64,000 nt of DNA from an uncultured Blastocatellia bacterium (GTDB taxonomy: Bacteria > Acidobacteriota > Blastocatellia > Pyrinomonadales > Pyrinomonadaceae), in NCBI GenBank assembly GCA_946480785.1, contig CAMLLD010000018.1, positions 1-64,000 of the forward strand. The letters run 5' to 3'. This document shows, piece after piece, positions 17,731 through 34,226 of this stretch. The stretch's first letter is position 1; every line of letters starts with the position of its first letter. A program made the position numbers and the translations under genes. Under the pieces are notes generated by a model. It was not told the DNA's origin. It ran no database searches and worked only from the letters and a program-made list of their open reading frames with translations.

Positions 17731-18303
17731 TTGAGCAAAAACCCCTCTGACAACGTCACGAAACTCCTGATTGAACTGTCTAATGGCGATCGGGCCGCGG
17801 TTGATCTTTTACTACCTGTCATCTACGATGAACTGCGCAAACTGGCAGCTAATTATCTGCGACGTGAGCGTCCCGATCACACTTTGCAACCGACTGCGCT
17901 CGTTCACGAAGCTTACCTGCGTCTGGTCGACCAGACGCGCGTAAACTGGCAGAACCGCGCACACTTTTTCGGCGTCGCTGCCCAGATCATGCGCCGCCTG
18001 CTCGTGGATCACGCACGCAAACACAACGCAGAGAAACGCGGTCAGGATTTTAAGAAGCTCTCCCTGGATGAAAATATCGATCGCGCCGTCGAACGCAGCG
18101 CCGAGTTGATCGCGCTCGACGACGCGCTCAAGACTCTGGCTTCTTTCGATCAGCAAAAGGCTCGTATGGTTGAATTGCGTTACTTTGGCGGCCTGTCAAT
18201 CGAAGAGACAGCAGACGTGATGGGTGTCACTCCGACTACCATCAAACGTCATTGGCGGCTGGCCAAAGCCTGGCTTCATGGGGAAATGCAAAGAAATGTT
18301 TAG
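17731..18303 (+). CDS. ECF-type RNA polymerase sigma factor
   Basis: 190 residues. Sigma region 2 (about 20-90, with YDELRKLAANYLRRERPDHTLQPTALVHEAYLRL and the -10-reading AAQIMRRLLVDHARK) and region 4 (about 125-185, with the helix-turn-helix LSIEETADVMGVTPTTIKRHW) are clear. The TLQPTALVHEAYLRL phrase marks the group usually found beside large Ser/Thr kinases in Acidobacteria and Planctomycetes, and here such a kinase follows 73 bases later. I see no anti-sigma gene, so the kinase may control it. The start is a TTG at 17731 with AGGAGAG about 9 bases upstream. Confidence 0.92.
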   Translation: MSKNPSDNVTKLLIELSNGDRAAVDLLLPVIYDELRKLAANYLRRERPDHTLQPTALVHEAYLRLVDQTRVNWQNRAHFFGVAAQIMRRLLVDHARKHNAEKRGQDFKKLSLDENIDRAVERSAELIALDDALKTLASFDQQKARMVELRYFGGLSIEETADVMGVTPTTIKRHWRLAKAWLHGEMQRNV

Positions 18304-18376
18304 AGCACGCTGTCAGTCCAGCCGTTTCTGCATCTAACTGTCCTCTTTTTTATAGCGAATACAAGTCCAGTAAGAC

Positions 18377-31350: not shown

Positions 31351-32613
31351 ATGCGGAAACGGCTTCTCGGGCTTCTGGCTGTTGTTGTCCTTTCAAACTC
31401 GGTAGCGCGCGCCGACAACTGGCCGCAGTGGCGCGGGCCGAACCTCAACGGCACCAGCGACGAGAAGAACCTGCCCGTCAAATGGACCACCGAAGATAAC
31501 GTCGCTTGGAAAGTCGCAATGCCGAGCTGGAGCGGGTCGACCCCGATCATCTGGCGCGACCGCGTTTTCCTCAACGTCGCTGACGGCGAGAACCTGTCTC
31601 TCTGGTGCGTCGACAAAACAAAAGGCGAAGTGCTTTGGAAACAACTACTCGGCGGCGGCAACGTCAAGATGCGGAAGCAGAACATGTCGTCGCCTTCGCC
31701 CGTCACTGACGGACGCGCGGTCTACGTCATGACCGGCACCGGCATTCTCAAAGCCTTCGACTTCGCCGGCAAAGAACTCTGGTCCAGAGACATTCAAAAA
31801 GATTACGGCGCGTTTGGCTTGAACTGGGGTTACGCTTCATCGCCGCTGTTGTTTGAAGACGCGCTCTTCGTTCAGGTGCTGCACGGCATGCGCACTGACG
31901 AACCGTCATACCTGCTGCGCATCGACAAGAAGAACGGCAAGACCGTGTGGAGAGTCGAACGCCCGACAAACGCGATTCGCGAATCGCCCGATTCCTACAC
32001 GACGCCCGCGCTGCTGCGCTACGGCAAGACGACAGAAATCGTGATCACGGGCGGCGACTGCGTTACCGGTCACGATCCCGCGACCGGCAAGGAACTCTGG
32101 CGCGCGAATGGCTTGAATCCGTATAACGATCCGTCGTATCGCATCGTGGCGTCGCCCATCATCTTCAACGACGTAATCTACGCGCCGACGCGCGTGAAGC
32201 CGCTGCTGGCGTTGCGCGCAGGCGGCCGCGGCGACGTCACTACGTCACACTTGTTGTGGTCCACCGTGAATGGACCAGACGTACCGACGCCTGTTACTGA
32301 CGGCAAGTATTTCTACATCGTCAATGATCGCGGCATCATCTGGTGTCTCGACGCGAAGACGGGCGAGGAAGTTTACGGCCAACAACGCATCAAGCCCGGC
32401 ACGTACAGCGCCTCGCCTGTTCTAGCCGACGGAAAAATCTACGTGACGAACGAAGATGGCTTGACGACGGTCGTGGAGGCGGGGCCGAAGTTTGAAGTGC
32501 TCGCGGAGAACCCTTTGAACGATTACACTTTGAGCTCGCCTGCGATCTCGGACGGACAGATCTTCATTCGCACGGCGGGTTATCTTTATTGCATAGGTAA
32601 GAAACAGTCATGA
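31351..32613 (+). CDS. Secreted PQQ-like (BamB-type) beta-propeller
   Basis: 420 residues. A signal peptide (1-22, ending ARA) is followed at once by NWPQWRGPNLNG, the start shared by most propellers in this window. Repeated blades of the DxxTGKxLW type follow (CVDKTKGEVLWK, DPATGKELWR, DAKTGEEVYG). The C-terminus ends with LYCIGKKQS. The family fold is that of PQQ dehydrogenases and BamB, but I see no haem motif or PQQ-enzyme signature, so it is probably a binding or scaffold protein in the periplasm. The strong AGGAGGA site supports the ATG at 31351. The stop overlaps the TPR gene start (ATGA). Confidence 0.88.
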   Translation: MRKRLLGLLAVVVLSNSVARADNWPQWRGPNLNGTSDEKNLPVKWTTEDNVAWKVAMPSWSGSTPIIWRDRVFLNVADGENLSLWCVDKTKGEVLWKQLLGGGNVKMRKQNMSSPSPVTDGRAVYVMTGTGILKAFDFAGKELWSRDIQKDYGAFGLNWGYASSPLLFEDALFVQVLHGMRTDEPSYLLRIDKKNGKTVWRVERPTNAIRESPDSYTTPALLRYGKTTEIVITGGDCVTGHDPATGKELWRANGLNPYNDPSYRIVASPIIFNDVIYAPTRVKPLLALRAGGRGDVTTSHLLWSTVNGPDVPTPVTDGKYFYIVNDRGIIWCLDAKTGEEVYGQQRIKPGTYSASPVLADGKIYVTNEDGLTTVVEAGPKFEVLAENPLNDYTLSSPAISDGQIFIRTAGYLYCIGKKQS

Positions 32614-34226
32614 TACGAGCAACAGTCTTAACACTTCTCATCGTTGTTACTGTGAACGCGCAGGAAACGCAACTCGGCCGTGTCGAGTTTCCCACGTCCG
32701 GCTCGCCCGCGGCCCAGGCGCATTTCCTGCGCGGACTCGCTGCGCTACATTCATTCTGGTACGAAGAAGCGCTCGACGCATTTCGCGAGTCGACCAAAGC
32801 CGATCCCGATTTCATGATGGGCTACTGGGGCGAGGCGATGACTTACAATCACCCGCTGTGGTCGGAACAAGACCTCGACGCCGCGCGCCTGGTGATCGCG
32901 AAGTTCAAAGACACACCAAAGCTCACCGATCGCGAACGCGCTTACATCAACGCCGTGAAAATCCTTTATGGCGCGGGCGACAAACGCGCGCGCGACCTCG
33001 CTTACTCCGCGGCGATGGAAAAGATCTATCGTGCCTATCCCGAAGATCTCGACGCGGCTGCGTTCTATTCCTTGTCGCTGCTCGGCCTGATGCGTCCGGG
33101 CGACAAGGGTTATCGCTTGCAAGCGCAGGCCGGCGCGATCGCGCTCGCCGTTTACGAAAAGAACCCGAACCATCCCGGCGCGGCGCACTACATCATTCAC
33201 GCTTTCGACGATCCTGATCACGCGATCCTCGCTCTGCCCGCCGCACGTCGTTACGCCGACATCGCTCCCGAAGCGCATCACGCGCGACACATGCCATCGC
33301 ACATTTTTCTCCAGCTCGGCATGTGGCCCGAAGCCGCGGCTTCGAACGAATCCGCGTGGGAGTCGTCAGACAAATGGATGAAGCGCAAGAAGCTGTCGCT
33401 GAGCGTGCGCGACTATCACAGTCTGCACTGGCTCATGTACGCGTATCTGCAGCAGGGTCGCTACAGCAAAGCGGAGCAGTTGTTGAAGCTGATGAAGCAG
33501 GTGATGGCGGAGTCGACTTACGACAACAAGCTGCGACCTGATTACTACGAGAACAACTACGCGAACATGGCGGCGGCGTTCGTCGTCGAAACCGAGCGCT
33601 GGGATCTCGCGAACGAACTCTTCCCGGTGAGTAATCAACCTCAGTACTCGGCGGCGGTAGCGCAAGACGGAGGTCACGGCTCACACGGATCTACACAGAT
33701 GGCGAGCGGATCTTCCCAAGCGACCAACACAACGCGCTATTCCGGCGCGAGCCGCACCTTGCCTCCGTTCATCCGCGCTTTGTCCGCGTCAATCCGTGGC
33801 TCAAACGACGTTGAAACAGGTCTATCCGGAATTAGAGAACTCGAAGTCGCCGCGGTGAAAGCGTCGATGAGCAAGGACTATGCGAAAGCAATCGAGTTGA
33901 TGCAGAAAGCGACGGCGCTGGAGGAAGAAACCGGCGCGCCTTCCGGTCCACCTTCGCTCATCAAACCGACGCACGAACTCTTCGGTGAGATACTGCTGAA
34001 AGCCGGCAAACCCGCGGACGCCATCACGATGTTTCACATTGCCTTGTTGCGTCAACCAAACCGCGCACGTTCTTTACTCGGTCTCGCACGCGCCGCCGCA
34101 CAAAGCGGAGATCAGGCGACGGCAAGAGCGACGTATGCAAAGCTTCTCGAACAGTGGAAACAGGCAGACGACGGCCTCAGTGAACTACGTGAAGCACGCG
34201 AGTACGTGCTTTCACGTATCGATTAG
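32610..34226 (+). CDS. Secreted TPR protein carrying an in-frame repeat insertion
   Basis: 538 residues with a signal peptide (1-18, ending NAQ). Helical TPR-like repeats run through the rest (LRGLAALHSFWYEEALDAFRES; HARHMPSHIFLQLGMWPEAAASN; YLQQGRYSKAEQLLKLM). H-A-R-H-M-P-S-H-I-F is a recurrent phrase in a TPR family of Acidobacteria and relatives. Residues about 345-405 are low-complexity and do not look like TPR; they are coded by two ACACGGAT-type repeats facing each other (33674-33801). The gene is coupled to the propeller before it. Its stop abuts the stop of the convergent propeller gene with no gap. Confidence 0.82.
   Translation: MIRATVLTLLIVVTVNAQETQLGRVEFPTSGSPAAQAHFLRGLAALHSFWYEEALDAFRESTKADPDFMMGYWGEAMTYNHPLWSEQDLDAARLVIAKFKDTPKLTDRERAYINAVKILYGAGDKRARDLAYSAAMEKIYRAYPEDLDAAAFYSLSLLGLMRPGDKGYRLQAQAGAIALAVYEKNPNHPGAAHYIIHAFDDPDHAILALPAARRYADIAPEAHHARHMPSHIFLQLGMWPEAAASNESAWESSDKWMKRKKLSLSVRDYHSLHWLMYAYLQQGRYSKAEQLLKLMKQVMAESTYDNKLRPDYYENNYANMAAAFVVETERWDLANELFPVSNQPQYSAAVAQDGGHGSHGSTQMASGSSQATNTTRYSGASRTLPPFIRALSASIRGSNDVETGLSGIRELEVAAVKASMSKDYAKAIELMQKATALEEETGAPSGPPSLIKPTHELFGEILLKAGKPADAITMFHIALLRQPNRARSLLGLARAAAQSGDQATARATYAKLLEQWKQADDGLSELREAREYVLSRID
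33674..33801. repeat. ACACGGAT-type repeats in inverted arrangement inside a gene
   Basis: The left part, TCACGGCTCACACGGAT then CTACACAGATGG (33674-33702), and the right part, TTCATCCGCGCTTTGTCCG then CGTCAATCCGTGGC (33768-33800), are members of the same family facing each other, about 65 bases apart. The reading frame of the TPR protein passes through both without a stop and adds a Gly/Ser/His-rich linker. Confidence 0.65.

Follow-up and report, generated by a model that had tools for sequence, protein, structure and literature searches.

In grixazone synthesis, according to the cited excerpt, GriC forms an acyl-AMP from an aryl acid and GriD reduces this acyl-AMP (PMC10179220). The part of PMC3175449 cited here describes EhpF-O, minus the transporter EhpJ, as turning phenazine dicarboxylic acid into an antibiotic, and the cited part of PMC12646458 describes YbbP as having 10 transmembrane (TM) helices, with periplasmic domains between TM1-2 and TM7-8. 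Here we describe a locus in which relatives of such an adenylating-reducing pair are joined to a family 4 glycosyltransferase (GT4) and to a YbbAP-like ATP-binding cassette (ABC) system; it lies in an uncultured Blastocatellia bacterium (Pyrinomonadaceae; GCA_946480785.1, contig CAMLLD010000018.1, positions 1 to 64,000), and the whole of this 64,000-nucleotide stretch is called the window below. Acidobacteriota are common soil bacteria in which, to our knowledge, few small-molecule pathways are known, and no description of the gene set was found in the literature searched, which covered few subscription papers. Our best reading is that an operon at 17731..34226 forms the compact half of a conserved pathway found in some Acidobacteriota, and we consider it somewhat probable that this pathway reduces an acid, very likely glycosylates the product and extracts it from the inner membrane. 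We are much surer that the genes belong together functionally than we are of the chemistry; gene content, families, synteny, co-occurrence even of unlinked genes, and correlated gains and losses across a tree were all observed directly.

The first-pass annotation had placed nine same-strand genes in this span, and all nine open reading frames (ORFs) were found on the + strand exactly there, open throughout. An extracytoplasmic function (ECF) sigma factor (17731..18303; TIGR02999 219 bits, PF07638) is followed by a Ser/Thr kinase of 1712 amino acids (aa) with a long tetratricopeptide repeat (TPR) region (18377..23515; PF00069, TPR), the EhpF/GriC-like adenylating enzyme P0003 (23512..24564), the EhpG/GriD-like acyl reductase P0004 of the aldehyde dehydrogenase (ALDH) superfamily (24561..25958; PF00171), the GT4 (25955..27277; PF00534), a LolD/YbbA-like ATPase (27270..27935; TIGR02211 233 bits, cut-off 307.75), a YbbP-like permease of 1122 aa (27932..31300; PF02687, PF12704), a PQQ_2/BamB-like beta-propeller, pA (31351..32613; PF13360), and a TPR protein (32610..34226), the last two probably secreted, with N-termini that are hydrophobic by eye. 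The names given earlier (ECF sigma, kinase with TPR, AMP-binding, Aldedh, GT4, ATPase, MacB/FtsX, PQQ_2 and TPR) agree with our family scans, in which the AMP-binding (Pfam) and LolD-like ATPase matches fell under the cut-off. Most neighbouring genes overlap, by 4-8 nt: the EhpF-like/ALDH, ALDH/GT4, ATPase/permease and propeller/TPR junctions by 4 nt and GT4/ATPase by 8 nt. The kinase and the EhpF-like gene also overlap by 4 nt, with a possible TTG start at 23512 inside the kinase stop codon; with this start the product is therefore about 350 aa long, not 403. The sigma factor and kinase genes are separated by 73 nt, and the permease and propeller by about 50 nt with the ATG at 31351 (47 nt measured to the preceding codon).

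We compared P0003 and P0004 with known enzymes. In the PDB at E<=1, P0003 matched EhpF entries only (3hgu/3l2k, E 7e-45). No PaaK-type phenylacetate-CoA ligase, an identity named beforehand as one that would refute the proposal, was matched in the PDB at the same limit, and the NCBIfam CoA-ligase model scored 21 bits versus 300; P0003 is thus EhpF-like rather than PaaK-like. LuxC/LuxE fatty acid reductases were set aside as well, Pfam at E<=0.001 giving only Aldedh and AMP-binding. The P-loop (ATP-binding) pattern is present in 82/82 EhpF-like ORFs, that of the window included. In P0004, Cys278 is kept in all 57 aligned rows (counting the window's own) and in 3/3 outside homologues; the reductase pattern G[GA]..C was found in only 41/55 ORFs, and the alignment shows G or S at its first position with the cysteine constant. 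The two proteins are 31% and 25% identical, respectively, to the adenylating enzyme and reductase on a Pantoea agglomerans plasmid bearing phenazine genes. EhpF-like genes occur on plasmids of Streptomyces, Pantoea, haloarchaea and others, and the EhpF-ALDH pair also adjoins on Streptomyces and Halalkalicoccus (haloarchaeal) plasmids. The locus thus encodes what a two-protein carboxylic acid reductase comprises, an EhpF-homologous subunit with the ATP motif and an adjoining ALDH-type reductase with the cysteine. Because of the homology to EhpF and the Pantoea pair, the side-by-side genes, the kept Cys278 and the chemistry of GriC/GriD, we place P0003 and P0004 with these enzymes as a predicted activity.

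The likeness to GriC/GriD (which is one of description) and to EhpF/EhpG of D-alanyl-griseoluteic acid synthesis lies in the adjoining adenylating enzyme and ALDH-type reductase, both homologous to the pair of the Pantoea phenazine cluster and with the cysteine kept. In contrast to those systems, the window pair shares 31% and 25% identity with the Pantoea pair, is joined to a GT4 and a YbbAP-like system, and is of a kind found in about one fifth of the sampled genomes of the phylum. The earlier suggestion of an EhpF/EhpG-type pair beside a GT4 and an ABC system was thus borne out by homology and, as described below, by kept gene order. Source records label the proteins of this pathway hypothetical, PaaK-like or BamB-like. 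Two further arrangements were seen: a haloarchaeal plasmid (L081) carries a symporter, an EhpF-like gene and an ALDH gene in a row, an arrangement reminiscent of the acidobacterial clusters with their symporter, and in one acidobacterial cluster (L123 in genome G243, 8646-12900) a GT4 gene stands between a pair of EhpF-like genes whose identities to that of the window are 84% and 67%.

Conservation of gene order was examined in the best 80 matches to P0003 in genome contigs (75-95% identical), using the 47 loci that extend at least 9.5 kb downstream and the 48 that extend at least 8 kb upstream. On the same strand downstream of EhpF we found the GT4 in 43/47, the ATPase and the permease each in 39/47, the ALDH in 36/47 and all four in 33/47; in a further 3/47 the ALDH, GT4, ATPase and permease form a divergent block upstream. 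A propeller lies downstream in 9/47 and a TPR gene in 3/47. The view of the nine genes as one unit therefore holds for the EhpF-ALDH-GT4-ATPase-permease order, but not for the sigma factor, kinase, propeller and TPR gene, which are rarely kept. The sigma factor and kinase stand upstream together in only 3/48 loci (the kinase additionally in two shorter loci, L002 and L004). Because of this count we take the two regulators to be local and not core, and we rejected an ECF/kinase-led system as a general feature. A promoter-like site precedes the sigma factor gene at 17656-17685, but such sites are no commoner than in shuffled sequences.

Elsewhere in the phylum, genomes carry a second kind of EhpF, about 59-74% identical to P0003. 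In one group (L106, L107, L110, L112, L113, L117-L120) a pyrroloquinoline quinone (PQQ)-dependent dehydrogenase of the methanol/ethanol family adjoins the EhpF-like gene, with a MenC/NSAR-like gene near and a gene that we presume to be GNAT-like, for which no family was matched. We read these as local neighbours, although the alcohol dehydrogenase may matter.

To follow the genes independently of linkage we surveyed 297 Acidobacteriota genomes. EhpF was found in 62 (three of an initial 65, G078, G127 and G186, were dropped at best E values of 1e-4 to 6e-4, and G233, at 42% identity, was kept), the permease in 69 and the GT4 in 68. EhpF and permease co-occur in 61 genomes, permease and GT4 in 68, and EhpF and GT4 in 60 (Fisher p < 1e-50 in every case, with no correction for kinship). 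This co-occurrence extends to unlinked genes: among the 60 genomes with both EhpF and GT4, the two genes lie less than 20 kb apart in 31, 68 kb to 1 Mb apart on the same contig in 6, and on different contigs in 23. The check suggested for the operon, conservation in relatives, thus came out in its favour in both gene order (33/47) and co-occurrence (61 of the 62 EhpF genomes). Because only two candidates per genome were scored for the permease, and five for the GT4 and the flavoprotein described below, absences are soft.

A RecA tree of 60 genomes, 36 with parts of the module and 24 without (chosen partly on the trait, and picked by hand from a list ending before the G101 clade), requires at least 13 changes for EhpF and at least 13 for the permease. 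Over its well-supported branches, nine independent pairs compare permease with EhpF: 6.8 change the same way, 0 in opposite ways and 2.2 show no difference (median p 0.0156). For the permease and a propeller encoded further along the locus, pH, the values were 7.9, 0 and 1.1 (p 0.0078). Of the 31 sampled genomes that carry both EhpF and permease, 30 have the ALDH, against 0/24 without parts; pH is present in 34/35 permease genomes, with one match per genome save two in G185, and in 1/24 without parts. That one, G263, also holds a radical S-adenosylmethionine (SAM) gene and an adjoining split flavoprotein, and so may be an incomplete carrier.

Three modification enzymes were followed in the same way, with orthologue lines set after the score gap was seen: flavoprotein at least 300 bits (46 of 67 genomes), radical SAM enzyme at least 300 bits (24 of 31; a second copy of 42-43% identity in G036, G083 and G281 also passes) and iron-containing alcohol dehydrogenase at least 340 bits (22 of 24). 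All 46 genomes with the flavoprotein orthologue fall within the 69 permease genomes. Among 35 permease genomes the radical SAM enzyme is present in 23, the flavoprotein in 22 and the iron alcohol dehydrogenase in 22 (the last in 0/24 without parts). On the tree the radical SAM enzyme changes with the flavoprotein (10.5 same, 0 opposite, 1.5 no difference, p 0.002) and with pH (6.4/0/5.6, p 0.03). We read EhpF, ALDH, GT4, ATPase, permease and pH as the core and the remainder as an optional set varying together. Six unremarkable-looking genes that travel together through a phylum even when unlinked make a testable pathway.

The operon had been put forward as the best candidate in the window for an undescribed system. 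Its genes are real and linked, but the span holds half of the locus, the pathway continuing to about 58 kb. In three genomes (G220, G204 and G058) the genes form one cluster in the order two propellers, EhpF, ALDH, iron alcohol dehydrogenase, an ACSF4-type propeller, a HemN-like radical SAM enzyme, a TonB siderophore-type receptor, the flavoprotein, a symporter, GT4, a thioesterase-family gene, ATPase and permease; the receptor was not seen in G204, the symporter is found only in G220 and G204, and the iron alcohol dehydrogenase of G220 and G058 was located by a separate orthologue search. In another group the set is split, and four genomes of this group (G101, G203, G125 and G173) have the two places 0.7-1 Mb apart on one contig. 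When the window was searched with proteins of the full clusters, matches lay at 39436-58154: flavoprotein (45% identity), radical SAM enzyme (50%), iron alcohol dehydrogenase (55%), pH (56%), the propeller pF (40%), whose full-cluster counterpart is the propeller preceding EhpF, and symporter (41%). Neither the TonB siderophore-type receptor nor the thioesterase of the full clusters had a window match above 60 bits.

The window order itself is kept in genome G001 from the sigma factor to the sigma-54 regulator described below, except that G001 has an additional propeller and, ahead of pC, about 14 kb of inserted DNA; a separate search located its pH, with a stop near one end, and the sensor kinase was not found there. 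In G029 and G072 the same order runs to the ends of the available pieces, the sigma factor and kinase being absent. The operon is followed by the propeller pB (34227..35453, -; PF13360), a TonB-type outer-membrane barrel (36115..39369, +; PF25183 860 bits), which we take to be "Oar-like", the flavoprotein (39436..40782, -; PF04820), the HemN/HutW-like radical SAM enzyme (40779..42092, -; PF04055, PF06969) and the propellers pC, pD and pE (44098-45537, 45598-46920 and 46917-48287, -; PF13360); pB to pE and the barrel are syntenic in G001, G029 and G072. Then come the propellers pF (728 aa; 49292..51478, +; PF13360) and pG (51475..52944, +; PF13360), the iron-containing alcohol dehydrogenase (52951..54099, +; PF00465), pH (54087..55217, +; PF13570 188 bits), an alpha/beta hydrolase (55210..56055, +; PF00561; 76% identical in G001), the sodium:solute symporter (56529..58154, -; PF00474) and an aromatic-type O-methyltransferase with an uncertain start (58439..59785, -; PF00891; PDB 6c5b, CalO6; 74% in G001), which among the loci examined stands beside the cluster only in the window and G001.

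The GT4 carries a loose E-x7-E pattern in 66/67 sequences and has no PDB relative at 1e-12; the Walker A and signature patterns of the ATPase are each present in 48/49. The permease was modelled (predicted local distance difference test, pLDDT, 83) with ten long helices and large parts between helices 1-2 and 7-8, the first predicted periplasmic part about twice the second. Its top fold match is YbbAP (9ge7, E 6e-17), and with 10 TM helices, two periplasmic domains and a separate ATPase the predicted model has the topology of a YbbAP-like type VII ABC system. The likeness to YbbAP-TesA thus covers a single ten-helix permease in which helices 1 and 7 are each followed by a periplasmic domain, a separate LolD-like ATPase, the best fold match and, in the full clusters, a thioesterase-family gene adjoining the ATPase. 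The window permease differs in length (1122 aa versus 804), in its larger first periplasmic part and in being joined to a biosynthetic module, and TesA was not seen: no TesA partner was named in the window scans, the full clusters having a 4HBT gene and the window the alpha/beta hydrolase. Plasmid searches for the permease and GT4 yielded nothing of use.

The best PDB matches of the flavoprotein were the FADH2 halogenases 8zop (2e-61) and PltA (1e-58). It has homology to PltA/CmlS and a WFWYIP sequence fitting WxWxIP, which we take to be the motif of FADH2-dependent halogenases. Unlike in those systems, a carrier protein was not seen at the locus, and a relative's protein fell under the NCBIfam cut-offs; halogenase activity is putative. 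The radical SAM protein is closest in the PDB to HemN (1olt) and next to the methyltransferase NocN (9p2u); its CxxxCxxC motif (FCRKRCLFC) and HemN_C domain (PF06969) are those of a class C radical SAM methyltransferase, a description that HemN itself also fits. The window encodes eight PQQ-type propellers (pA-pH). The core propeller pH, probably secreted, was modelled as an eight-bladed beta-propeller with an N-terminal helix resembling a signal peptide (pLDDT 88.6), both features shared with BamB/YxaL propellers, but pH co-occurs with the pathway, and no bam genes were found among the window genes scanned. A PQQ enzyme was rejected as its nearest relative, the best structural matches being the designed propellers (Cakes), BamB and YxaL.

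We infer the reactions and their order as follows. The EhpF/GriC-like enzyme would convert a carboxylic acid, probably aromatic, to the acyl-AMP, and the EhpG/GriD-like enzyme would take the acyl group onto its cysteine and reduce it to the aldehyde with nicotinamide. In extended versions like that of the window, the iron alcohol dehydrogenase would convert the aldehyde to the alcohol, while the ring or chain may be modified by the radical SAM enzyme and the halogenase-like flavoprotein. The aldehyde or alcohol would then receive a sugar from the GT4, after which the ATPase and permease of the YbbAP-like system would draw the amphipathic product out of the inner membrane and into the periplasm. 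There it may be received or used by secreted propellers, pH in particular, and the outer-membrane barrel may pass it, so that it would leave the cell. A glycosylated aldehyde or alcohol made and exported under kinase and sigma-factor control had been suggested; the pair, GT4 and ABC system are indeed linked, but that control is not general. The scheme names two enzymes that can be assayed together, suggests a probable cargo for a YbbAP-like system, and gives one class of secreted propellers a partner.

Several findings weigh against this scheme. The fold match of the permease to YbbP has a low global TM-score (0.29-0.41), and type VII ABC systems are not all exporters. In 7/47 loci there is no ALDH on either side of EhpF, although two genomes in which a window-type EhpF has no adjoining ALDH hold a second EhpF-ALDH pair elsewhere (L018, L029 and L085, L086). 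EhpF was not detected in 8/69 permease genomes, which also have the GT4 (one, G226, has the ALDH), so that the exporter half may serve other products. The modification enzymes are absent from about one third of permease genomes, and on the tree neither the radical SAM enzyme (5.4 same, 1.0 opposite, 5.6 no difference, p 0.22) nor the flavoprotein (5.1/0/5.9, p 0.06) changes significantly with the permease.

We think it unlikely that the locus serves uptake and conversion rather than de novo synthesis, the barrel and sodium symporter importing an acid that the cell reduces, glycosylates and expels, for detoxification or use. Such a role would fit the symporter adjoining EhpF-ALDH on the haloarchaeal plasmid and in acidobacterial clusters, the TonB siderophore-type receptor of several full clusters, and the lack of any aromatic-ring-building enzyme among the window genes scanned; it fits less well with a window-type EhpF that is 75-95% identical in the 80 best relatives and a halogenase-like enzyme kept in 46/69 permease genomes, both unusual for detoxification. 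Quite unlikely, in our view, is an envelope lipid pathway, in which a fatty or isoprenoid acid would become a glycolipid or ether-lipid precursor moved by the YbbAP-like system toward the outer membrane, even though GT4 enzymes often glycosylate lipids and the genes are widely spread in the phylum. The LuxC and LuxE families were unmatched, the PltA-like halogenase and, in the window's lineage, the aromatic-type O-methyltransferase point to a ring, and the characterised GriC/GriD pair acts, in the cited excerpt, on an aryl acid (PMC10179220).

A more specific version of the aromatic pathway, which we put forward as improbable, is that it makes a dedicated, glycosylated extracytoplasmic aromatic cofactor or metal-binder that is lifted out of the inner membrane by the YbbAP-like system and docks into the co-encoded secreted PQQ-type propellers, of which pH co-occurs almost strictly; if this is true, Acidobacteriota would have a periplasmic cofactor system of a new kind. 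That EhpF-ALDH and GT4-ABC are two independent modules, merely frequent neighbours with a shared lifestyle, is very improbable given their near-perfect co-occurrence even when unlinked and correlated tree changes with no opposite pairs, despite the eight permease genomes that hold the GT4-ABC half only, the EhpF-ALDH pairs without GT4-ABC in Pantoea, Streptomyces and the haloarchaeal plasmid, and the fragmented state of most genomes searched.

Scans of the window for tRNA and Rfam families yielded nothing of use. Beyond the O-methyltransferase, a sigma-54 response regulator and a hybrid histidine kinase (59614-63530, -) follow; they may control the 39-59 kb half of the locus. Just upstream of the operon, at 15442-17224 on the - strand, lie two gas vesicle genes of the GvpL/GvpF family (15442-16158, PF06386; 16394-17224, NCBIfam GvpL, under the cut-off).

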